Made by a program: the position numbers and the translations under genes
Notes under the pieces: model-generated
Told to the model about the DNA's origin: nothing
Seen by the model: only the letters and a program-made list of their open reading frames with translations
Database searches by the model: none
Shown here: piece after piece, positions 1,170 through 13,434 of the stretch
Numbering within the stretch: position 1 is the stretch's first letter
Layout: each line of letters starts with the position of its first letter
Assembly (NCBI GenBank): GCA_026988115.1
Contig: JALSLV010000103.1
Location: forward strand, 1-36,890
Source: Lysobacterales bacterium
GTDB taxonomy: Bacteria; Pseudomonadota; Gammaproteobacteria; Xanthomonadales; Marinicellaceae
DNA length: 36,890 bases
Direction of reading: 5' to 3'

Positions 1170-1228
1170 ACAATAGTTTTTTTTTAATTATGGCGAATTC
1201 GCCTCAAATAGGTTTGTATTATGAGTAA
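1166..1228 (+). CDS. 20-codon mini-ORF coupling cas1 to the KilA-N gene
   Basis: An ATG at 1166 overlaps the cas1 TGA (ATGA) and follows a strong AAAGGAGAG site. It encodes 20 residues (MNNSFFLIMANSPQIGLYYE) and its TAA lies just inside the KilA-N start at 1221. It contains a T9 run and the 12-bp palindrome GGCGAATTCGCC (1192-1203). It may be a translational coupler, or a scar of the junction that once held the cas2-3 start. There is no evidence that the peptide itself has a function. Confidence 0.3.
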   Translation: MNNSFFLIMANSPQIGLYYE

Positions 1229-2051
1229 AAGAAATTCAAAAATAGAAATCAAAGGAATTGAAGTTACCTTAACTCAAATACGACAAAAGGATTTTGTTTG
1301 TATCACAGACATAGCAAAATATAAAAACCCAGAAGCACCAAGAGACATTATAAAAAATTGGATGCGAACTAAAAACACCATTGAATTACTAGGACTTTGG
1401 GAAAAAATAAACAACCCAAATTTTAAACAGGTCGAATTCGACCTGTTTAGAAGTGAAGCCGGTTACAACCACTTTGTGTTATCACCACAAAAATGGATAA
1501 ATACTACAGATGCTATTGGTTTACAATCTAAATCGGGTAGGTACGGCGGCACATATGCTCACATAGATATTGCTCTAGAATTTGCCTCATGGGTCTCAGT
1601 TGAGTTTAAGTTTTACCTTATAAAAGAATTTCAGCGGTTAAAAAGCCAACAGCAAAAAGAACTGGATTGGGATATAAAGCGCAGTTTAACCAAAATAAAT
1701 TACCGCATCCACACCGATGCAATAAAACAAAACCTCATACCAAAACACCTAAGTAAAAAACAAACATCAATAATCTACGCCAACGAAGCCGATGTGTTAA
1801 ATATGGCATTGTTTGGACAAACAGCAAAACAATGGCGAGAAAACAATCAAAAAAAAGAAGGTAATATCCGCGATTATGCCAATGTAAGCCAACTGGTTTG
1901 CCTATCCAATCTCGAAAATCTCAATGCTGTATTCATAAACGCAGGAGAAGAGCAAAATATACGCTTAGAAAAACTCAACCAAATAGCCATAGGGCAAATG
2001 AAAATCTTAGTTCAAAACCACACTATAAAAAATTTAGAGAACAAGGATTAA
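1221..2051 (+). CDS. KilA-N domain protein inside the cas operon
   Basis: The 276-aa protein has a KilA-N DNA-binding domain over roughly residues 10-140: KDFVCITDIAKYKNP, then WINTTDAIGLQSKSGRYGGT, then IDIALEFASWVSVEFKFYLI. This domain is typical of phage and large-virus regulators such as P1 KilA. The rest (about 150-276) is helical, charged and not recognised (contains VLNMALFGQTAKQWRENN). It starts within the overlap of the preceding mini-ORF and stops 3 bp before cas2-3, so it is almost certainly co-transcribed with the cas genes. I-F loci normally have cas1 directly followed by cas2-3, so this is an insertion. It could be a regulator, an accessory adaptation or interference factor, or a cargo gene from a phage; the sequence does not decide. 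Confidence 0.8.
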   Translation: MSKRNSKIEIKGIEVTLTQIRQKDFVCITDIAKYKNPEAPRDIIKNWMRTKNTIELLGLWEKINNPNFKQVEFDLFRSEAGYNHFVLSPQKWINTTDAIGLQSKSGRYGGTYAHIDIALEFASWVSVEFKFYLIKEFQRLKSQQQKELDWDIKRSLTKINYRIHTDAIKQNLIPKHLSKKQTSIIYANEADVLNMALFGQTAKQWRENNQKKEGNIRDYANVSQLVCLSNLENLNAVFINAGEEQNIRLEKLNQIAIGQMKILVQNHTIKNLENKD

Positions 2052-2054
2052 AAA

Positions 2055-5000
2055 ATGATAGTTACCTTCATCTCCCAATGTGAAAAAAAGTCACTGAATA
2101 AAACCAGACGTGTACTGGATGCCTTTGCTAATCGAATAGGTAACAGAACATGGCAAACGCCAATAACCGAAGAAGGCTTGGGAGCAGTTAAAAAATTGTT
2201 GAAAAAAACTGCTACAAAAAATACGGCAGTGGCTTGTCATAAAATCAAATCTAGAAAATTGACAAAGTTGGAGTGGGTTGTTGGTAATCGGGATAGGTTT
2301 AACTTTGAGGGGCATGTTCCGGTTAATTTTACGGAAAAAGATATTAATAAATATAGAGATAGTGCAAAGTGGAAAACACTAAATATTATTAAATATGCCT
2401 CTTCTATAGCAGGGTTGTTCCATGATGTAGGTAAGGCTAATGAACTGTTTCAGAATAAACTAAACCCTGAATTATTAGGTAAGTTTTATGAACCATATCG
2501 GCACGAGTGGGTTTCGTTGAGAATATTTCAAGCATTTGTAGATAACCAGTCAGATACAGAGTGGTTACAAGCTTTAATTGATATAGATAACAGTGCAGAA
2601 AAATTAGTACTTGAAAAACTCAAGTCACTAAGAGATGGGATTGATAAAAATATAAAGAACCCTTTTAAATCCTTACCGCCGTTTGCAAAATTAGTTGCTT
2701 GGCTGATTGTATCTCATCATAAATTGCCGCAATATCCTAAAATGGGTGATAATCCACCATCATTTGAAAACATGGGAAAATGGTTAAATGAATATTTTGA
2801 AGCTTGTTGGAATTCCCCACAATGTATGCAAGATGATTGGAATTACAGTGATATTAAAAAAAATTGGAATTTTCCATATGGTACACCATTTAAAAGTGCC
2901 CACTGGCAAACTCACATCAGTATTTTAGCCAAAAAAGCCTTAAGTTTTGAGAGTCTGCAACAAAACTGGTTTGAGCAACACTTTACGGCTCATATATCTC
3001 GGCTATGTTTGATGCTATCTGATCATTATTATTCATCTCAGCCAGAAACAACCCCAGAATTACAAGATAGAAACTATAAAGCCTATGCCAATACAGATAA
3101 AGATAAATACGGGCAAAAATATTTAAAGCAAAAACTTGATGAACATAATATTGCGGTAGGAATGAATGCATACGAATTTGCTAAATCATTGCCTAAATTA
3201 AAAAATGATTTACCTGTGTTAAAACCTAATAAAGCATTAACCGCAAAAGTTCCAGATTGTTTTCAATTAGATTTTGGTTGGCAAGAAAGAGCTTATCATT
3301 TAGCAAAATCTATTAAAGATGATACAAAAAATTATGGCTTTTTTGGTGTTTGTCAATCATCAACAGGAAAGGGGAAAACACTAGGCAATGTACGCATAAT
3401 GTACGGGCTTTCGGATGATAACAAATGTCGATTTAGCATTGCTTTAGGCTTGAGAACATTAACTTTACAAACTGCGGATGCTCTCAAAGATAATTTAAAT
3501 CTTGAGTATGATGAACTTGCTTTGCTGATAGGTTCACAAGCGGTGAAAGACTTACATCAACAGTCAAAAGAACCAGAAACAACAGAAGAACAAAACCAAG
3601 GCAGTGAATCGGCCGAATCCTTATTAAAAGATGAAATATCATTAATTGAGGAATTACCAGAATACCATGGAGAAGGTGCTGTATGGTTTAAACATGATCC
3701 AAAAATTCTAAAACTGATACAAGCGCCTGTTTTAGTTAGTACCATTGATTATTTAATGCCAGCCAACGAAGGAATACGAGGTGGTCGTCAGATAGCTCCT
3801 ATGCTTAGGTTGTTGACCTCGGATTTAGTGCTTGATGAGCCTGATGATTTTGGCTTAGATGATTTACCTGCTTTGTGCCGCTTAGTGAATTGGGCAGGAA
3901 TGTTAGGCAGTCGAGTTCTCTTATCAACTGCAACCATTTCTCCATCACTAGCAAGTACACTATTCTTGGCCTACCAACAAGGAAGAAAGCACTATACGCA
4001 AGTTAATTGCGAGCTTGGTGAAACAAGTAGAGTTTGTTGTGCTTGGTTTGATGAATTTAAAAAACCATTATCCAAGCTTATAGACAATGAAAAATCTTAT
4101 GTACTAGAACATAAAAGCTTTATTGATAAACGCATTAAAAATTTAGAGAAAAAAAGTTCAGCTTTAAGGAAAGCCAAAATTGTTAAAGTGGAACGCAATA
4201 ATGAAAAAACACCAACTGAGTGTATCTCATCGGTTATTCAAGCCTCAATTAAAACATTACATCAACAAAATTCTGTTATTATTGATAATAAAAAAGTCTC
4301 TATTGGCTTGGTACGTATGGCAAATATTAATCCACTGGTGCATATTTCGAAAATGTTATTAGAAAAAGCTCCACCTGAAAATACAATTGTTCATTATTGT
4401 GTATATCACAGTCAATTTCCATTGTTACAACGCTCAAATATTGAAAAGCAATTAGATGATGCATTATCTCGTCATAGTGAAAAAAAGTGGCTACAGCAAT
4501 CCGGCATTCCAGAAGTTATACAAAACTATAAAGAAAAACACCATATATTTGTAGTTTTAGCAACAGCGGTAGCTGAAGTAGGTCGAGATCATGATTATGA
4601 TTGGGCAATTGTTGAACCAAGCTCTATGCGCTCAATTATACAATTAGCAGGGCGAGTTCAACGTCACCGCAAACAAATGCCATCAAATGAAAATATTCAT
4701 ATACTATCAAAAAACTATAAAGGTTTAAAAGGCTTAAAATTAAAATTTGAAAAACCAGGGTTTGAATCTCAAAAGTTACAATATGCATCAGCTGAATTAA
4801 CCGAACTTGTCAAGGAAAATGAATTTGATGATATTAATGCAATTGCCAGAATTAAAGCACCTTACACGCTCTCTTTAACAACACATCTTTCACCAAGGTT
4901 TAAATCATTTAATGAATTAGAGCATTTTTCTCAAACAATACGCCTTGTTGGCAGTAAAAAAGAAAAAGATTATGCAGCTCAATGGTGGAATAATGAAATG

Positions 5001-5393
5001 ACATGGTGTGGCGAATTGCAACGTTTACAACCTTTTAGGCAGTCATTGCCAAATGATGATTATAATCTTGTATTTACTCGTACAGAAAAAGCTATTTGGC
5101 AAAAGAAAATACCAAAAACATTTCCAGTACGGTATGAAAATACTTCTGATATAGCAGAAAAGCAAGAAAAAATTAATATCGGAATAGGCAATCACTTTTG
5201 GGGAAGCTTTAATCTCAAAGAAGAAATAAACAAATTAGCAAAACGATCAAGAGAAAGTGAAGAATTAGTTTTAAAGAAATTCACTCACTTATCTCTTCAA
5301 CAATTAAATAAAAACTCGACTAAGCAGTGGCAATGCCACCCTATGTTCGGTTTATACAAAATATTGAAAAAGGATACCTATGAAAATGAGTAA
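2055..5393 (+). CDS. cas3f: Cas2-Cas3 fusion, subtype I-F (nuclease-helicase)
   Basis: The 1112-aa length fits the I-F Cas2-3 fusion. Residues 1-95 are the Cas2 domain (MIVTFISQCEKKSL). An HD nuclease domain follows with His123-Asp124 (LFHDVGKANELF) and a second motif ASHHKLP-like (IVSHHKLPQY). The SF2 helicase has Walker A STGKGKT (438-442), DEPD box at 594-597 (LVLDEPDDF), motif III STAT and a C-terminal QLAGRVQRHR. It joins Cas1 for spacer acquisition and degrades target DNA after recruitment by the Csy complex. The start at 2055 has AAGGA at 2043-2047. No key residue appears missing, so interference should be functional. The 3' end overlaps csy1 by 14 nt. Confidence 0.95.
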   Translation: MIVTFISQCEKKSLNKTRRVLDAFANRIGNRTWQTPITEEGLGAVKKLLKKTATKNTAVACHKIKSRKLTKLEWVVGNRDRFNFEGHVPVNFTEKDINKYRDSAKWKTLNIIKYASSIAGLFHDVGKANELFQNKLNPELLGKFYEPYRHEWVSLRIFQAFVDNQSDTEWLQALIDIDNSAEKLVLEKLKSLRDGIDKNIKNPFKSLPPFAKLVAWLIVSHHKLPQYPKMGDNPPSFENMGKWLNEYFEACWNSPQCMQDDWNYSDIKKNWNFPYGTPFKSAHWQTHISILAKKALSFESLQQNWFEQHFTAHISRLCLMLSDHYYSSQPETTPELQDRNYKAYANTDKDKYGQKYLKQKLDEHNIAVGMNAYEFAKSLPKLKNDLPVLKPNKALTAKVPDCFQLDFGWQERAYHLAKSIKDDTKNYGFFGVCQSSTGKGKTLGNVRIMYGLSDDNKCRFSIALGLRTLTLQTADALKDNLNLEYDELALLIGSQAVKDLHQQSKEPETTEEQNQGSESAESLLKDEISLIEELPEYHGEGAVWFKHDPKILKLIQAPVLVSTIDYLMPANEGIRGGRQIAPMLRLLTSDLVLDEPDDFGLDDLPALCRLVNWAGMLGSRVLLSTATISPSLASTLFLAYQQGRKHYTQVNCELGETSRVCCAWFDEFKKPLSKLIDNEKSYVLEHKSFIDKRIKNLEKKSSALRKAKIVKVERNNEKTPTECISSVIQASIKTLHQQNSVIIDNKKVSIGLVRMANINPLVHISKMLLEKAPPENTIVHYCVYHSQFPLLQRSNIEKQLDDALSRHSEKKWLQQSGIPEVIQNYKEKHHIFVVLATAVAEVGRDHDYDWAIVEPSSMRSIIQLAGRVQRHRKQMPSNENIHILSKNYKGLKGLKLKFEKPGFESQKLQYASAELTELVKENEFDDINAIARIKAPYTLSLTTHLSPRFKSFNELEHFSQTIRLVGSKKEKDYAAQWWNNEMTWCGELQRLQPFRQSLPNDDYNLVFTRTEKAIWQKKIPKTFPVRYENTSDIAEKQEKINIGIGNHFWGSFNLKEEINKLAKRSRESEELVLKKFTHLSLQQLNKNSTKQWQCHPMFGLYKILKKDTYENE

Positions 5394-6909
5394 AGTGAAT
5401 ATTATAAAAGTTCAAAATGCCATTAAAAACTATATTGATGCTGTTGACGAGAAAAACATAATAGATAGAAGTTTAGATAAGATTTTAAATTTATATACAG
5501 AATTTTTATCAAATACATACTTGCAAGCCAAATCTATTTTTAATCAAAATATTGAAATTAAAAAAATTGTCTCTGATTTAAAAAAGAAAAAAGTTGCTAA
5601 AGGTTCTTCTAAGCAAGAAAAAATTAATTTTTCTCGTGATATTATAAATAAGTTGATAAGTTTTTTTGAAAAACAAGAGGTGCTTGCTGAACTAGTACAG
5701 GCACATCGTCTATTATCTATTGAAGTTAAAAACATTAAAAGTTGGAATAAATATGAGCAATGGATTGGCTGGGCGTTAGATTTTGGCAAGGAAAGCTACT
5801 TGGCAACTCATATTGCAAAATTGACACACTCAAGTAGTAAGGGAGCTTCGTGTGATGTACGTTACCATAATTCTTGTACTAAATATAACTCACAGTATTT
5901 AGCAACTTCTGAAAAGCCTATTTTAGATACTGCTTACCCAAACAACAAATATTCATCTATTTCGCAGTTATACAGTATCAAAGTGGGTGAGTGTTATATT
6001 GGTGATTTACTAAGGGAAGGGAACGAGCAATATCTTAAATGTTTTACCAGAAATGACAAATTATTGGAATTTTGGTGTCAGTGTTTTTCAAAATTTATTA
6101 AAAATAAAAATAAAAAAAGTTACTTTCTTTCCAAACAAACCTACTTTCCTATTGAAGATAATCAATACCATCTGTTATTACCATTAACTTCATCATCTTT
6201 AGTGCATGAGTTACACCTTGAACATAAGAAATATTGGGATAAAGGGCAAGAAACGGCTAGAGAGCAAAATAAAAATAAAAAATACTCAGCTATAAATACA
6301 TGCAGCTACCCAAACAAAGCTTATTTACATGTAACAGGTTCCAATCACTCTAATGCCTCGTCATTAAATGGTAAACGTGGTGGAAGAATTGCTTTATTAT
6401 CGGCGATGCCTCCACAATGGCAGTCAAAATTTCCTTCTTATGTTGATAAAACTGAAGTATTCGATAAAAAGCTAGGTTTTACCTTAAAAACGGAAATAGA
6501 AGAACTTAAAAAATATTTATTATTAATCAAAAGCAAATCACTCAGTATCAGTGAGTCTAAACGAAATGCTGCGGTCATGCGTAAACTGCGAATCATTAGC
6601 GGTAATTTCTTTAATTACATTGGGGAGATTAATATTCAAACAGCTCTTAAAAATTGGACTATTGACAGTCATTTACCGATTGAACAACAACTTTTATTTG
6701 AATTTAACCGAGAAGATAAAATAGCACTGTCTGTAAAAGCAAATAAGAAGTGGATGAAAACACTCAGTAAAAGTTATGGGCGTTGGTTAAATAATCAGCT
6801 TAAATCAAAAAGCAAATTATCCTTAACTCTTATTCATGAAAGAATATGGGCTGATGCTTTTTTAATTGAATTGCGAGAGTTTATTGCAATACAGGAGGTA
6901 ACATTATGA
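5380..6909 (+). CDS. csy1: Csy1 / Cas8f, large subunit of the I-F complex
   Basis: This 509-aa protein lies between cas2-3 and csy2, as in all I-F operons, and has the C-terminal motif region of Csy1 (LHVTGSNHSNASSLNGKRGG and ALLSAMPPQW). In the family Cas8f recognises the PAM and, with Cas5f, caps the 5' handle of the crRNA. The start at 5380 overlaps the cas2-3 stop and is preceded by AAAGGA; a second in-frame ATG two codons later is possible. It is somewhat longer than the Pseudomonas protein and very rich in Lys, Asn and Ser. The stop overlaps csy2 as ATGA. Confidence 0.92.
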   Translation: MKMSKVNIIKVQNAIKNYIDAVDEKNIIDRSLDKILNLYTEFLSNTYLQAKSIFNQNIEIKKIVSDLKKKKVAKGSSKQEKINFSRDIINKLISFFEKQEVLAELVQAHRLLSIEVKNIKSWNKYEQWIGWALDFGKESYLATHIAKLTHSSSKGASCDVRYHNSCTKYNSQYLATSEKPILDTAYPNNKYSSISQLYSIKVGECYIGDLLREGNEQYLKCFTRNDKLLEFWCQCFSKFIKNKNKKSYFLSKQTYFPIEDNQYHLLLPLTSSSLVHELHLEHKKYWDKGQETAREQNKNKKYSAINTCSYPNKAYLHVTGSNHSNASSLNGKRGGRIALLSAMPPQWQSKFPSYVDKTEVFDKKLGFTLKTEIEELKKYLLLIKSKSLSISESKRNAAVMRKLRIISGNFFNYIGEINIQTALKNWTIDSHLPIEQQLLFEFNREDKIALSVKANKKWMKTLSKSYGRWLNNQLKSKSKLSLTLIHERIWADAFLIELREFIAIQEVTL

Positions 6910-7967
6910 GTCAATATTTAGTACTTAGTCATATCAAAATACAAAATGCTAATTCAATTGCAGGACTGACTTGGGGCTTTCCTGCTATTACTCAATTTTT
7001 GGGCTTTACTCACGCCCTAAATCGAAAAATATCCAATCAGTATGATGGTGAATATGATACTGAATTAATCGGTTGTGGTGTGATATCTCATGCTATTCAA
7101 AATAAAGTGTATCAGCCAAAACAATATGCTGACTTTGAATTTATACAAAGTAGAAATCCACCTGTACTAGCACTTCATAAAAATGGTAAAAAAGTACCAG
7201 TCATCGAAGAAGGCAAAATGAATTTAACCGTTAGCTTAGTGATAGAGTTAAATAAATCGTTAACTTTAACGACTGAACAAATAAAAGAATTTGAACAAAA
7301 AATAGAGTCTTTGAGTTATCAAATGCGCATTGCTGGAGGCACTTTATTAAGCATTAGCAAGGTGAATCTTCTGGCTGCAAGCACACAAAATCAGCATACA
7401 GATATGCTAAGAAAAATTAAGCGACTGACTATGCCTGGTTTTGTTTTGTTTGACCGCCATGAATATTTACAGCAACACTATCAAACTTTATTAACAAAGC
7501 ACAGTTCAAAAGGTGGTAATGCAAAAAAACCACAATTGATTGATGCGTGGCTAGATTTTTCTGCACTTAAATTTAAAGCAATACCAGAGCTTAGTAAAGA
7601 TCAAAATCAACCAGATGACAATACAACGGCCAAGTGGGAATACATTTCTAAGCCTAATACAGGCTATTTAATTCCGCTTATGACAGGTTATAAGGCTATC
7701 AGTGAATTGTATACACCAAAGCAAGTTAAAAATACCCGTGATGAAACAACACCTACGCGATTTGTTGAAGCGATACATTCAGTTGGAGAATGGAAAAGTA
7801 TGCACAACACTAAACATATTATTGATATTATTTGGCGTTATCAACATGACGGACAATGGTATCTATGTAAACAAAATATTAATACAGGTATCGAGAAAAC
7901 TGATGATACAAATAATATAGAACAGACCCAAACATTTAATTTAAACGAAGCACTTAACAACTTTTGA
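6906..7967 (+). CDS. csy2: Csy2 / Cas5f
   Basis: The 353-aa protein begins QYLVLSHIKIQNANSIAGLT and has the WGFPAITQFLGFTHALNRKI stretch typical of Csy2. Cas5f binds the 5' handle of the crRNA and pairs with Cas8f at the tail of the complex. A consensus AGGAGG (6893-6898) precedes the ATG at 6906, the strongest ribosome binding site in the operon, and the start overlaps the csy1 stop by 4 nt. The C-terminus is Asn/Thr-rich and acidic. Confidence 0.93.
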   Translation: MSQYLVLSHIKIQNANSIAGLTWGFPAITQFLGFTHALNRKISNQYDGEYDTELIGCGVISHAIQNKVYQPKQYADFEFIQSRNPPVLALHKNGKKVPVIEEGKMNLTVSLVIELNKSLTLTTEQIKEFEQKIESLSYQMRIAGGTLLSISKVNLLAASTQNQHTDMLRKIKRLTMPGFVLFDRHEYLQQHYQTLLTKHSSKGGNAKKPQLIDAWLDFSALKFKAIPELSKDQNQPDDNTTAKWEYISKPNTGYLIPLMTGYKAISELYTPKQVKNTRDETTPTRFVEAIHSVGEWKSMHNTKHIIDIIWRYQHDGQWYLCKQNINTGIEKTDDTNNIEQTQTFNLNEALNNF

Positions 7968-7978
7968 GGAAAAACATT

Positions 7979-8998
7979 ATGACAAATTTAACCATGCCAA
8001 GCGTATTAGCTTTCGACCGTAAACTAGAACCTTCTGACGCATTGATGTACTCAGGTACTTGGGACAGCATACATACTGAAAACTTATGGCAAGCAATAGA
8101 GCTTTTTGAACGCCGCAATCGAGCAGTAAAAAGTAACTTTAAACAAGAAGTTCTTGAAGATGAAGTAGAATTACAAAAACAAACAGCAGAATCAAACCTT
8201 TCTTGGGGAGACGATGCCGCATTAGACCATAAGCATGACACATTAAAATTGAGTTTTACCTTGCGAGTTGTAAATGGTCTAAATAAACCTTCTGTATGTA
8301 ATAGTACAGACTTTGAAAAAACTTACAGTAAGAAGGTGGAAGATTATACTCAATTGAACATTGGACAACTCGCTAATCGTTATGCCTATAATATTGCCAA
8401 TGGACGATTTTTATGGCGTAATCGTATTTGTGCTCAGGAGCTTAAAGTTGTTGTCAACCATTCTAGTTTGAGTGAACCATTAACCTTTAATGCGTACGAT
8501 TACCCTTTAAGAAACACAACAGCAGACGATAAGAAACTAGCAATGCTTGCCGAGATAATTAAATCAGGTTTTGTAAATGACAAAGCTGTATTACTGAAGA
8601 TTGATGCTTACGCAAGGCTTGGCAATGGGCAACGAGTGTGGCCATCACAAGAGATGACTTTAAACACGCCAAAAGGTGAGAAAAGTCGCCATTTATTTCA
8701 TTTGAAGGTTAATGGTAAGGATATTGCAGCAATGCATTGTGAAAAAATAGGCAATGCTTTACGCACGATTGATGATTGGTATCCTAAATTTCAAGAAACA
8801 CAAACACCTATTGCGATTGAAGCCTATGGCTCGGTCACTCAAAGAGGTATAGCTTATCGTTCTACAAGAAATGATTTCAAAAGCTTATTGTTGACATGGC
8901 TTAATGCAGAGGACGAAAATGGCATTGAAGAAGATAGTAAGCACTTTGTTGTTGCTATGTTAATTCGTGGTGGAGTTTTTGGTGAGAGTGAATGCTAA
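7979..8998 (+). CDS. csy3: Csy3 / Cas7f, backbone subunit
   Basis: The 339-aa protein starts MTNLTMPSVLAFDRKLEPSD, a typical Csy3 N-terminus. The frame is open further upstream to a TTG at 7964, but GAGGA at 7966-7970 with 8-nt spacing selects the ATG at 7979. Six Cas7f subunits coat the crRNA spacer in the I-F complex. Family features include TESNLSWGDDAALDHK and the C-terminal GSVTQRGIAYRSTRNDFKSL. Only 11 nt separate it from csy2, and its stop lies in the ribosome binding site of cas6f. Confidence 0.95.
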   Translation: MTNLTMPSVLAFDRKLEPSDALMYSGTWDSIHTENLWQAIELFERRNRAVKSNFKQEVLEDEVELQKQTAESNLSWGDDAALDHKHDTLKLSFTLRVVNGLNKPSVCNSTDFEKTYSKKVEDYTQLNIGQLANRYAYNIANGRFLWRNRICAQELKVVVNHSSLSEPLTFNAYDYPLRNTTADDKKLAMLAEIIKSGFVNDKAVLLKIDAYARLGNGQRVWPSQEMTLNTPKGEKSRHLFHLKVNGKDIAAMHCEKIGNALRTIDDWYPKFQETQTPIAIEAYGSVTQRGIAYRSTRNDFKSLLLTWLNAEDENGIEEDSKHFVVAMLIRGGVFGESEC

Positions 8999-9007
8999 GG
9001 AGATAAA

Positions 9008-9613
9008 ATGAAATACTACCAAGACATAACCATCATTCCATGTGCAGAAATCTCGATTTACCATATTTGGGAAAAACTCTACCAACAAGTACATCTTGCA
9101 CTTGTTGAGAGTCAAGGTGCTGAGGATAAAATACACATGGGTGTGGCATTTCCTAAATACAAATATAATGAAAAATGTAAGACATTGGGCAATGTATTAC
9201 GGGTATTTGCAAACAGTGAACAGGAACTAGAAAATTTAGACTTAACTAAATGGCTGACTCGTTTAAGTGATTATGCTCATATAAAAAGCATAAGAACAGT
9301 TCCAGAAACCAATAGTTTTTATAGTTTTTACGATCCAAGACCAGAATCGAATATCGAAAGGCTTGCCAGACGAAACATAAAAAGGTTAAAGGAAAAGAGG
9401 AATATCAAAATAACTTTAGAAGAAGCGATAAAGAAAATAAAAGCAAGAGGATTTAAAGAAGAAAAATTAGACTATCCATTTATCAATGTAAAAAGCTTGG
9501 GAAATCAGCATCGTTTTAGAAGGTTTATAATTCAGCAAAAAGCTGATATAATGACGAATAAAGGTTTTAACTCCTATGGATTAAGCCGTCAATCATCATT
9601 ACCAAACTTTTAA
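9008..9613 (+). CDS. cas6f: Csy4 / Cas6f, crRNA-processing endoribonuclease
   Basis: The 201-aa protein has the Csy4 layout: the N-terminal KLYQQVHLALVESQ with His29 at the position of the catalytic histidine of Pseudomonas Csy4, MGVAFPKY, an Arg/Lys-rich helix (about 113-131, ERLARRNIKRLKEKRN) that would sit in the RNA major groove, and a C-terminal GNQHRFRRFI...SYGLSR block. It cuts each repeat RNA at the 3' base of the hairpin, leaving the 8-nt handle CUUAGAAA, and stays bound to the 3' stem. AAGGAGA (8997-9003) directs the start. The repeat it must read lacks the top stem pair. Confidence 0.95.
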   Translation: MKYYQDITIIPCAEISIYHIWEKLYQQVHLALVESQGAEDKIHMGVAFPKYKYNEKCKTLGNVLRVFANSEQELENLDLTKWLTRLSDYAHIKSIRTVPETNSFYSFYDPRPESNIERLARRNIKRLKEKRNIKITLEEAIKKIKARGFKEEKLDYPFINVKSLGNQHRFRRFIIQQKADIMTNKGFNSYGLSRQSSLPNF

Positions 9614-9743: not shown

Positions 9744-12233
9744 ATTCACTGCCGCAAACGCAGCTTAGAAAAGCATCAAAGGGTAATGATTGCATAAAGT
9801 GCCATTCACTGCCGCAAACGCAGCTTAGAAAAGCTACTCAGGAACATTGTGACAAATGCGGATAATTCACTGCCGCAAACGCAGCTTAGAAAAGTTTGCG
9901 TGTAAAAGTTTAATCAAAAGTTGAATTCACTGCCGCAAACGCAGCTTAGAAAGATAGGCTCTACTTTCGACATGTCCGAATCAGATTCACTGCCGCAAAC
10001 GCAGCTTAGAAATGATTTAAGTTTGATGACTCTCTATCGTTTGCATTCACTGCCGCAAACGCAGCTTAGAAAACTAGACTTGACTAAATACTCAATGCAG
10101 GGTGATTCACTGCCGCAAACGCAGCTTAGAAAATCATATTTAAAGATGGAAACAAGCTAAATCTATTCACTGCCGCAAACGCAGCTTAGAAAAATCAGCT
10201 GGGCGATAATACCAGGCTTTTTTCATTCACTGCCGCAAACGCAGCTTAGAAATATGTATATCGCCATTTTCTTTTTTCTTAAATATTCACTGCCGCAAAC
10301 GCAGCTTAGAAAAACTAAGCGTTTTTGATACCCTCCTTTTACTGATTCACTGCCGCAAACGCAGCTTAGAAAAGCATCAAAAGGCACTAAAGGCATCTTT
10401 GGACATTCACTGCCGCAAACGCAGCTTAGAAATGATTGTCTTTGTTTTGTAATGCTCATTGATTATTCACTGCCGCAAACGCAGCTTAGAAACGAAAAGC
10501 CACATGTGGAAAAGCCACATGTGGATTCACTGCCGCAAACGCAGCTTAGAAATACAAGGAATATATAGATCTATTTCTATATATATTCACTGCCGCAAAC
10601 GCAGCTTAGAAAATTTGTTGATATTGTTGAGTTCAATATACTAAATTCACTGCCGCAAACGCAGCTTAGAAAATAGCTGTAATTCTTTGCGTTCGTTGTG
10701 CTGCATTCACTGCCGCAAACGCAGCTTAGAAAAATTAAGAGAACAAAACCAAAAAGAGAAAAAAATTCACTGCCGCAAACGCAGCTTAGAAAACATGGGA
10801 TCACCTGTTTTAGGTGTGGGACATATTCACTGCCGCAAACGCAGCTTAGAAAGTGATGTTACTTTCAGCTTTAACATTTACAAAATTCACTGCCGCAAAC
10901 GCAGCTTAGAAAATTTGTTGTATAAATAAGTTAAGTACAGGAGCATTCACTGCCGCAAACGCAGCTTAGAAATGTCTTCCAATTCTTTAATTGCTGGTTC
11001 AATTATTCACTGCCGCAAACGCAGCTTAGAAATTAATTGATGCGTTAGAAGACAAGAAAAATATATTCACTGCCGCAAACGCAGCTTAGAAAAAGTGGGT
11101 CACTAATCGTGATTGTGTTCAAATATTCACTGCCGCAAACGCAGCTTAGAAAATACAGGAAAAAATCAGGAGGGTTATGGAGGAATTCACTGCCGCAAAC
11201 GCAGCTTAGAAAACGCCGATCACAGCGGTACCGTAAGCGATGCTATTCACTGCCGCAAACGCAGCTTAGAAATCAAAGGGGTTAAGACACGGTTTTGCAA
11301 TCGCATTCACTGCCGCAAACGCAGCTTAGAAATGCAGAAATTCAACCACAAATCACAAAAAAAGATTCACTGCCGCAAACGCAGCTTAGAAAAAACATAG
11401 CAATCTCAAATGAGTTTGTGTTGTATTCACTGCCGCAAACGCAGCTTAGAAATAGATTCCCAGGCGTTGGATATGAGCGAGGAGATTCACTGCCGCAAAC
11501 GCAGCTTAGAAATTGTTGTGCACAATAACCTGCCTTATGGTAACATTCACTGCCGCAAACGCAGCTTAGAAAAAAGCATCATATATTTGCATTAATTCTC
11601 CACCATTCACTGCCGCAAACGCAGCTTAGAAAATTCAGGTGACGCACTCATGAAATATTCGACCATTCACTGCCGCAAACGCAGCTTAGAAAAGTACAAC
11701 GACCAAACCTATCAGTTGGTGGCGATTCACTGCCGCAAACGCAGCTTAGAAAAAAAACTTGCTGGTCGTGATGAAGTTGATTTGATTCACTGCCGCAAAC
11801 GCAGCTTAGAAATGACAGCAGAGTATTAGAAATTGAATATGAACATTCACTGCCGCAAACGCAGCTTAGAAATAAACAAAGGGAATTAAGCGACCGCGAG
11901 ACGTATTCACTGCCGCAAACGCAGCTTAGAAATGAATTCAATGTAACAGACCATAAAAACGGTTATTCACTGCCGCAAACGCAGCTTAGAAAAAACAAAA
12001 AAAATCAGGAAAGTCAAAGATAACATTCACTGCCGCAAACGCAGCTTAGAAAAACAACTTCAAAAGATGATTTTAAGTTTAAAAATTCACTGCCGCAAAC
12101 GCAGCTTTGAAATCTGTGTTTTGTCTGCATCTTGCATGTGTTGTATTCACTGCCGCAAACGCAGCTTAGAAAAATGTCATGCGGGTTTGGTTGCTCATAA
12201 ATGCCATTCACTGCCGCAAACGCAGCTTATAAT
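9744..12233 (+). CRISPR. Subtype I-F CRISPR array, 42 repeats and 41 spacers
   Basis: A 28-bp repeat (ATTCACTGCCG, then CAAAC, then GCAGCTTAGAAA) recurs with a 60-bp period; spacers are 32 bp except two of 33 bp (9832-9864 and 12173-12205). The + strand is the transcribed sense, giving the I-F 5' handle CTTAGAAA. Forty repeats looked identical on reading. The repeat at 12085-12112 has one change (CTTTGAAA), and the last, 12206-12233, ends CTTATAAT; this places the old end on the right. The spacer at 10493-10524 is two tandem 15-mers. The hairpin has CTGC/GCAG but a C-C mismatch where the fifth pair should be. No spacer source could be identified by reading. Confidence 0.98.
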
Positions 12234-12240
12234 CGATAGG

Positions 12241-12345
12241 GTCGAAGAATTTGACTTTGCTGGATTGTTGGTTTTAACCGACGTTTTTTGGTTTTGTTTG
12301 TCTTTGAGTGGGATAAATCCCACTTACCAGTAACTGCTTGAGTTG
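12241..12345. repeat. Degenerate non-coding direct repeat, copy 1
   Basis: This stretch starts right after the last CRISPR repeat and recurs with small changes at 12509-12615, about 268 bp on. Shared blocks are GGTTTTAACCGA and the hairpin AGTGGGATAAATCCCACT (12307-12324) followed by TACCAGTAA. The same hairpin recurs with one change at 12473-12490. No ORF of note lies here. Confidence 0.6.
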
Positions 12346-12353
12346 AAGGGGTT

Positions 12354-12460
12354 GGTTTTCTTTTATTTATTGAGGTAATCCACACACTGCCGATGGGCAT
12401 GGCCCATCCTACAGTTTTATCTTTTCGCCGTGTGTGCTGTGTCGCTGTGCGATTATTTGT
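12354..12460. repeat. Non-coding repeat flanking the toxin-antitoxin pair, left copy
   Basis: The segment from TTTTCTTTTATTTATTGAGG to GTGCGATTATTTG recurs at 13495-13594 on the other side of the antitoxin-toxin genes, in the same orientation and roughly 85-90% alike by eye. It includes the hairpin GATGGGC/GCCCATC (12392-12408). A shorter relative of its start lies at about 12621-12660. Confidence 0.6.
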
Positions 12461-12508
12461 TTTTTGCGCTTGAGTGGGATAAATACCACTTACCAGTACA
12501 TTGCTTGA

Positions 12509-12615
12509 CTCGTAGAATTCGATTTTGTTGGATTGTCGGTTTTAACCGATGTTTTTTTAGGTTTTTTTTGATTTGAGTGGGATAAATCCCACTTACCAGT
12601 AATGGCTTGAGTTGG
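12509..12615. repeat. Degenerate non-coding direct repeat, copy 2
   Basis: Second copy of the unit at 12241-12345, again with the GGTTTTAACCGA block and the AGTGGGATAAATCCCACT hairpin (12576-12593). The remaining non-coding DNA up to 12743 shows no further structure that I can support. Confidence 0.55.
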
Positions 12616-12743
12616 AGGGTTTTATTTTATTTTTGTCATTGAGGTAGTCCAAACTCTGCTTTATTTTAAAAAATCTCTTAGTAACTCCGTGTTTTCTCTG
12701 TGTTCCTTTGCATTTTAATAACAAAGACAGTGAAGATATTTCA

Positions 12744-12802: not shown

Positions 12803-13039
12803 ATGACAGTTGCAACAATATCTAGTAGAGGTCAAATCACAATACCAGCCGATGTGAGGGCGACATTGAGTTTAAAAAGAGGGGATAAAGTTAACTTTAT
12901 TATCATTGGTAATGAAGTTAAATTTTTACCTGTTACTAAGGATATAAATACATTAAAGGGTTTTATAAAAAAGCCGTTAAAAGCGGTAAGTATAGAAGAG
13001 ATGAATAAAACCATTAAAACCAGAGGTTCTAGTTCGTGA
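12803..13039 (+). CDS. AbrB/SpoVT-type antitoxin (VapB-like)
   Basis: The 78-aa protein opens with the swapped-hairpin DNA-binding motif TISSRGQITIPADVRATLSL, followed by KRGDKVNFI, which is diagnostic for AbrB/MazE/SpoVT antitoxins. The C-terminal 30 residues are the probable toxin-binding tail. Its TGA overlaps the GTG start of the PIN toxin (GTGA), so the pair is translationally coupled. By analogy it neutralises the toxin and represses its own promoter at 12744-12772. Confidence 0.88.
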   Translation: MTVATISSRGQITIPADVRATLSLKRGDKVNFIIIGNEVKFLPVTKDINTLKGFIKKPLKAVSIEEMNKTIKTRGSSS

Positions 13040-13434
13040 TTGGCTTAGATACTAATGTTTTGATTCGGTTTTTGACACAAGATGATGCTGTTCAGGCAAA
13101 AATAGCAACTAAATTTATTAACTCAAATTGCTCTGAAGAAAGTCCTGCCTATATTTGTCATGTTGTTCTTTGTGAGTTGGTATGGGTATTAGAAAGTAAT
13201 TATCTGCAAACTAAAGAAACAATAATTCGTTTGATTGAGGAGTTGTTACAAATTAGTCAATTAGAAATAATGGAATCTGAATCAGTTTGGCGTGCATTAG
13301 GTGATTTTAAAAACTCAAATGCTGATTTTGCAGATCATTTGATTGCAGGTTCAAATTTTGTAAATGGTTGCAGTACGACAGTGACCTTTGATAAAAAAGC
13401 AGGTAAACAACCGCTGTTTGAAATGTTGGAATGA
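13036..13434 (+). CDS. PIN-domain ribonuclease toxin (VapC-like)
   Basis: The 132-aa protein has the PIN motifs in order: MIGLDTNVLIRFL (Asp5), LCELVWVL (Glu47), NADFADHLIA (Asp97, Asp100) and TFDKKA (Asp119). These acidic residues bind the metal ions of the nuclease site, and all are present, so the toxin should be active. VapC toxins cut tRNA or rRNA when freed from antitoxin. It starts with GTG, overlapping the antitoxin stop. Confidence 0.9.
   Translation: MIGLDTNVLIRFLTQDDAVQAKIATKFINSNCSEESPAYICHVVLCELVWVLESNYLQTKETIIRLIEELLQISQLEIMESESVWRALGDFKNSNADFADHLIAGSNFVNGCSTTVTFDKKAGKQPLFEMLE

Follow-up and report, generated by a model that had tools for sequence, protein, structure and literature searches.

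The subject of this analysis is a KilA-N gene lying inside the type I-F CRISPR (clustered regularly interspaced short palindromic repeats) operon of a Lysobacterales bacterium of the family Marinicellaceae. The stretch of DNA analysed, referred to below as the window, comprises the 36,890 nucleotides of contig JALSLV010000103.1 (assembly GCA_026988115.1, positions 1 to 36,890 of the forward strand). Profile searches identified a complete type I-F set in the window: Cas1f, Cas2-3f, Csy1-4 and an I-F array. Between cas1 (222–1169, + strand; TIGR03637, 485.9 bits) and the cas2-3 fusion gene (2055–5393, +; TIGR02562, 1095 bits; PF21384) lies an open reading frame (ORF) at 1221–2051 (+), which encodes 276 amino acids and contains no internal stops. 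Residues 16–142 of its product (1266–1646) matched the KilA-N domain profile PF04383 at 74.2 bits (cut-off 23.8). An initial annotation made from the letters of the window had described a gene for a 276-aa KilA-N protein at this place, 3 bp before cas2-3 of an I-F operon, and the ORF and the profile searches bear that description out.

The KilA-N gene is separated from cas1 by a 51-bp spacer (1170–1220) without CRISPR-repeat-like sequence, and from cas2-3 by 3 bp. The surroundings of the gene showed no excess of promoters or terminators, which fits read-through transcription. Judging from this arrangement, the gene is probably co-expressed with the cas operon. The initial annotation had held that it must be expressed together with the adaptation module; the spacing fits co-expression.

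The remaining genes of the operon follow on the same strand: csy1 (5380–6909; PF09611), csy2 (6906–7967; PF09614, 299.7 bits), csy3 (7964–8998; PF09615, 360 bits) and csy4, also called cas6f (9008–9613; PF09618, 174 bits). Csy1 scored below the NCBIfam cut-off (156.2 against 169.4 bits) and passed that of Pfam (163.1 against 22.7 bits). The CRISPR array (9744–12233, +) has 41 exact-core repeats and one variant. Directly past the array, at 12242–12660, short repeated units of 39–107 nt were seen, and a 132-aa ORF beside the array (13036–13434) resembles a PIN-domain toxin by eye.

The gene and its family

Over its full length, the window protein matched the family PDC-S22 of PADLOC (PDLC04962; E 2.3e-129; residues 1–274 on positions 1–275 of the 281-position profile). 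PDC-S22 is, by this profile match, an already listed candidate anti-phage family of PADLOC-DB. The gene is therefore not the undescribed component that the initial annotation had proposed. The PDC families were named by “guilt-by-embedding” (PMC12988326, citing Payne et al. 2024), and that article does not name PDC-S22 and describes validation as pending for most PDCs. Among the PHROG families, the protein matched PHROG 2657, “transcriptional regulator”.

An AlphaFold2 model of the protein (mb2d9aeb5dce7; 36 rows) had a mean predicted local distance difference test score of 88.9 and a predicted template modelling score of 0.64. The N-terminal domain of the model superposed on Mbp1 (1bm8) with a Z of 9.3 and a root-mean-square deviation (rmsd) of 3.0 Å over 87 aligned residues. 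As would be expected of KilA-N, the domain is, in the predicted model, a KilA-N/APSES-type domain with an Mbp1-like DNA-binding fold. The C-terminal part (1647–2048) is predicted to be helical, comprising the remainder of a long helix (residues 127–171) and further helices up to residue 273. No relatives with solved structures were found by sequence at E 1.

Full-length relatives with about 43–85% identity were found in Bacteroidota, Chlorobiota, Cyanobacteria, Campylobacterota, Patescibacteria and one archaeon, as well as on plasmids, in Streptococcus satellite phages and in Staphylococcus phage EW. The phage kind that the initial annotation had assigned to the KilA-N domain is in line with this distribution, in which the gene type also occurs in phages. 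The closest relatives in public genomes belong to hosts that are not near kin of the window's host: one (L053) is 85% identical over 230 columns, while the best BLAST match (L040), 83% identical over 275 residues, sits behind hsdM.

This type I restriction context recurs among the relatives. HsdM lay directly upstream or HsdS directly downstream of the relative in 25 of 80 genome contigs, the HsdM and HsdS query proteins having been checked by Pfam, and relatives in such a place belong to genomes of several phyla. We also scanned the neighbouring genes themselves with Pfam, taking those on the same strand, at most 150 bp away and at least 90 aa long. Upstream, N6_Mtase was present in 13 of 43 neighbours (kept of 47), and downstream, Methylase_S was present in 15 of 38 (kept of 44); the rest, some near-duplicates, were removed by hand. 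The other scanned neighbours were varied genes, many of them one-off cases. In the satellite and phage records examined, two phage relatives were located between repressor and integrase genes. Across 80 viral contigs with relatives, searches with few query proteins returned an integrase match in at least 29 and a repressor or ImmA match in at least 20; hsd context was found in one, and the window's Cas1, Cas2-3 and Csy1-4 matched none.

Three further placements of such genes were observed. The window's own genome carries a second, 60% identical KilA-N gene (contig C15, locus L033, 11615–12472), which directly abuts a 1345-aa helicase gene that we take to be Lhr-like; it also lies near an integrase gene, presumably resembling an integron integrase. 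On an Aureispira plasmid (L123), cas1-cas2 is followed by a recombinase gene and, about 2.2 kb on, by a KilA-N gene. At L118 (1660–5530), a relative is flanked by two S41-type peptidase genes, each overlapping by 4 bp; its label as hsd-flanked in the KilA-N tree described below is wrong, which leaves the sets containing the window and L153 unaffected.

The cas1/cas2-3 junction and its guests

We drew loci with cas1f from the window's order (299 genomes, 24 over the cut-off) and class (369, 42), and from the orders of genomes G368 (20, 2), G523 (4, 1), G545 (311, 113) and G616 (14, 1). In the window's family, 8 of 33 searched genomes had cas1f. The draws overlap. The junction was scored in 155 loci, the window included, in which the end of Cas1 was complete and the start of cas2-3 could be located; loci with a partial Cas1 or a contig end stayed outside this table. 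Outside the locus set altogether were G363 of the class draw and 13 matches over the cut-off in the order of G545, most of which were partial or lay at the end of a contig.

Most often, cas1 and cas2-3 overlapped by 4 bp (101 of 155 loci), and the gap was at most 30 bp in 114; the initial annotation had taken overlap as the normal state of I-F loci. The loci were divided at 60% Cas1 identity to the window, a line that is an identity cut and not exactly a clade. For the 127 loci at or above this line, the gap was at most 30 bp in 86, 30–150 bp in 6 and at least 150 bp in 35; for the 28 loci below it, all gaps were at most 30 bp and none reached 150 bp (Fisher p 0.0007 for filled slots, kinship ignored). 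In a tree of the cas genes, in which four loci were skipped, every filled locus included fell in one 120-row set (support 97), and a few empty high-identity loci fell outside it.

The contents of the 35 filled slots were typed by Pfam and by tblastn to Pfam-tested members. Twenty-four held toxin-antitoxin genes, two KilA-N, two Bro-N, one ORF6N, one a helix-turn-helix (HTH)-WYL regulator and one a CreTA-like element; four (L196, L222, L244, L272) had no assignment, of which L196 was coded as toxin-antitoxin in the cas tree. The toxin-antitoxin types were VapBC-type, PIN with MazE-type, BrnTA, ParE-type and TacA-type, and one slot combined PIN/MazE with an addiction-module antidote. Some of these 24 slots were partial, for example L019, with an antitoxin only. 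The toxin-antitoxin genes ran antisense to the operon in 22 of the 24 slots, with L192 sense and L273 mixed, and the KilA-N, ORF6N, Bro-N and WYL genes ran in the sense direction in all six. The PADLOC scan, which covered one of the two Bro-N genes (L147), assigned it to PDC-S13 and the ORF6N gene (L021) to PDC-S05. By these profile matches, the KilA-N, ORF6N and Bro-N guests include members of no fewer than three candidate families (PDC-S22, S13 and S05). Both L147 and L021 abut or overlap the two neighbouring genes; the other Bro-N gene, L148, starts 144 bp after cas1 and overlaps cas2-3 by 4 bp.

Within the window's genus, 3 of 11 searched genomes had cas1f, and their slots hold the KilA-N gene of the window (G000), the ORF6N gene (G187, L021) and a short remnant (G008). 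The remnant is an 82-bp gap (L018), at whose beginning the start of cas2-3 appears to be partly duplicated (16 of 20 positions). Besides this weak duplication, only short exact matches were found at slot edges, in L196 and L205, so that no insertion mechanism emerges. In L162 (G394), the 69-bp gap and the ORF6N gene of L021 have a short palindromic string in common, and the gap is perhaps a remnant, judged by eye.

A second KilA-N gene at the junction was found in G368, a genome from another family (L153; PF04383, 87 bits; PDC-S22, E 6.5e-125). It is 57% identical to that of the window and, as there, lies 3 bp before cas2-3; its longest frame extends into the cas1 end, and its true start is unsure. 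Its best BLAST match was a gene flanked by hsdM and hsdS (L076, 76%), and another at 73.5% (L084) also lies in an hsd operon. In a 94-row tree of KilA-N sequences, the window gene formed a 12-row set with 11 hsd-flanked genes (support 99/87), while L153 stood apart from it, grouped with L076, L084, L109 and L119. A single origin of the two cas-borne genes appeared in none of 200 bootstrap trees. The two KilA-N loci were also apart in the cas tree, with two changes, forced by the starred branches and counted against the other occupied loci; G630, the nearest cas relative of G368, has the ordinary cas1/cas2-3 overlap. From their separation in both trees we infer two acquisitions, and the KilA-N genes were thus probably acquired independently at the two junctions. 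The 155 scored loci held no KilA-N gene beyond these two. Recurrence in other genomes, for a test of which the initial annotation had called, was accordingly seen in one distant genome, apparently independently, and in none of the 80 genome contigs with relatives, where neither a Cas1, a Cas2-3 nor a Csy1 like the window's was found at E 1e-3 in flanks of up to 6 kb, often shorter.

The CreTA-like slot belongs to G481 (L303, about 1058–1404; also L141). It has two pseudo-repeats, matching a canonical I-F repeat at 24 and 23 of 28 positions, around a 20-nt spacer. The first 10 nt of the spacer match a site in the same slot flanked by a CC motif (protospacer adjacent motif), with 15 of 20 positions matching overall; apart from the spacer itself, this was the only seed match of at least 8 within 11.6 kb. 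The same locus has a further pseudo-repeat at about 4801, in a 380-bp gap between cas2-3 and csy1, the known place of I-F CreTA. At the cas2-3/csy1 junction, gaps of 384–385 bp were also seen in L300 and L322, of 966 bp in L309 (G802) and of 1346 bp in L321 (G718), and L293 (G882) has a gap of 1805 bp between csy3 and csy4. The 1007-bp slot of L194 (G905) contains a TacA-type antitoxin and a pseudo-repeat (20 of 28), with a second pseudo-repeat discerned by eye.

A limited literature search that did not extend to the PDC-family preprint yielded no description of a cas1/cas2-3 junction holding KilA-N or toxin-antitoxin genes.

Possible roles: defence gene, guard or passenger

We favour, with moderate confidence, the interpretation that the window gene is a candidate anti-phage gene of PDC-S22 that moves horizontally, was inserted at the cas1/cas2-3 junction and now lies embedded in the cas operon. 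Following horizontal insertion at the junction, the KilA-N protein would be produced together with the Cas proteins, would bind DNA via its KilA-N domain and would interfere with phage DNA or its replication, as a second defence working independently of the first. Its role would be neither to help acquire spacers nor to control cas expression. In one I-F group, the junction would offer a landing site to guest modules: toxin-antitoxin genes in most cases, and in some a KilA-N, ORF6N or Bro-N gene matching a candidate defence family. PDC-S22-type genes were found in 19 of the 369 genomes of the class draw (22 matches), and that two of these genomes, the window's own and G368, have a copy in the cas junction would, on a rough estimate, exceed uniform chance.

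A more far-reaching possibility, which we put forward tentatively, is that, in this I-F group, the cas1/cas2-3 junction is a slot reserved for guards, the KilA-N protein being one of them. Unrelated guests would have been placed there repeatedly, tying the survival of the cell to an intact adaptation module or answering phage attack on it. The guards would comprise type II toxin-antitoxins, mostly in reverse orientation, the KilA-N, ORF6N and Bro-N genes in the sense of the operon, and the CreTA-like element. The slot raises the question of whether its guests guard the CRISPR system, are independent defences that share its promoter, or are passengers tolerated where they do no harm, and it is this junction, more than the single KilA-N gene, that holds the main interest.

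The last of these is the main rival of a defence role. A selfish or neutral passenger, with its own or borrowed mobility, would survive wherever it is harmless, and the junction would merely be permissive. Relatives of the gene do occur in unrelated places, such as after ybeY in Parabacteroides, before the helicase gene in the window's own genome, and next to tRNA-synthetase or LpxK genes in single cases, and such housekeeping neighbours are what would be expected of a neutral mobile gene; the diverse guests of the junction and the small remnant in G008 point in the same direction. Gaps of at least 300 bp were also present between cas2-3 and csy1, in 6 of 21 scored loci. Against a passenger stand the hsd neighbours counted above, the repeated filling of the I-F junction by three candidate defence families, the conservation of the protein (column identity averaging 59% in 43 sequences), and the csy1/csy2 junction, which had no insertion in any of 20 scored loci; this comparison with other junctions is indicative only, because the loci were partly chosen by occupancy and csy genes were undetected in many. 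We regard a passenger as rather doubtful. The initial annotation had reasoned that a gene found next to cas genes in this strain only, with close relatives scattered in unrelated loci, would be a chance insertion; the close relatives are indeed scattered, while the adjacency to cas genes extends beyond this strain to G368.

Several further observations weigh against the defence interpretation, together with the housekeeping neighbours and the cas2-3/csy1 gaps. No demonstrated function for PDC-S22 was found in the literature consulted. More than half of the 80 genome contigs had no hsd match, and only two of the 22 class-draw matches lay in a cas junction and two in strict hsd context, a further five having their methylase or specificity match at the opposite flank. 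KilA-N genes occupy only 2 of the 127 high-identity junctions. The argument from uniform chance is rough, one of its two cases being the genome under study. The finest placements in the KilA-N tree were weak by the Shimodaira–Hasegawa-like approximate likelihood ratio test (window with L040 and L053, 90/27; L153 with L109 and L119, 91/19). Finally, homology of the window protein to the defence protein BstA was rejected, the best BLASTP piece reaching E 0.093 over 32 columns.

The initial annotation had proposed, among other roles, a regulator of cas expression or an adaptation cofactor. The position between two adaptation genes, the DNA-binding domain and the WYL regulator in the same slot of G651, of a kind listed by PADLOC as CRISPR-associated, are in keeping with a regulator of the cas operon or a cofactor of Cas1-Cas2-3. 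However, the other filled slot in the window's genus holds ORF6N instead, the majority of high-identity junctions are unoccupied (86 of 127 with a gap of at most 30 bp), 125 of the 127 are without KilA-N, and the relatives are found in hsd operons, phages and plasmids and beside housekeeping genes, with no Cas1, Cas2-3 or Csy1 like the window's found in the 80 genome contigs (flanks of 6 kb or less). A role of this kind is not supported and is unlikely. Still less probable is a CRISPR-repressed KilA-N toxin of the CrePA kind, whose promoter would be shut by Cascade guided by a crRNA (CRISPR RNA)-like CreA: a CreTA-like element does occupy the same junction in G481, but in the window, the only part of its genome that was searched, the slot has no CreA-like pseudo-repeat (best 16 of 28, with shuffles reaching up to 17), the 39 parsed array spacers have no target above background at 1001–2300 (at most 21 of 32 positions for those of normal length), and the leader has only 51 bp and no promoter excess.

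Comparison with known systems

The whole model of the window protein aligned with DdrC of Deinococcus radiodurans with a Z of 9.9 over 191 residues, at an rmsd of 12.8 Å and 8% identity, although helical parts yield middling Z values easily; Foldseek gave E 5.8e-4 and a template modelling (TM) score of 0.31 at best. With such values of rmsd and TM, only the domain make-up would be alike. The two-domain match between the predicted model and DdrC is loose, and the function of DdrC is not transferable to the window protein.

BstA, as described in PMC8585504, is a defence protein with a KilA-N-like domain, often encoded downstream of a prophage repressor. BstA of phage BTP1 shares with the window's family a KilA-N-like N-terminal domain and, with the two phage relatives, a place by the prophage repressor.

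The CreTA and CrePA guards are likewise guest modules tied to a cas locus, and CreP has been described as carrying KilA-N. They differ in that the window slot has no CreA-like repeats, and the I-F CreTA modules described in PMC10097628 lie between cas3 and csy1.

In type I restriction operons of hsdM-KilA-N-hsdS order, genes of the same family, up to 83–85% identical to that of the window, often overlap their neighbours by a few base pairs. There, the host is a restriction operon and not a cas operon. With PDC-S22 as listed in PADLOC, the window gene shares the full-length profile match and the embedding in a defence operon, while its host operon is an I-F cas operon and its place the cas1/cas2-3 junction. 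The embedding of candidate defence genes, known in restriction operons, thus extends to the adaptation junction of I-F systems.
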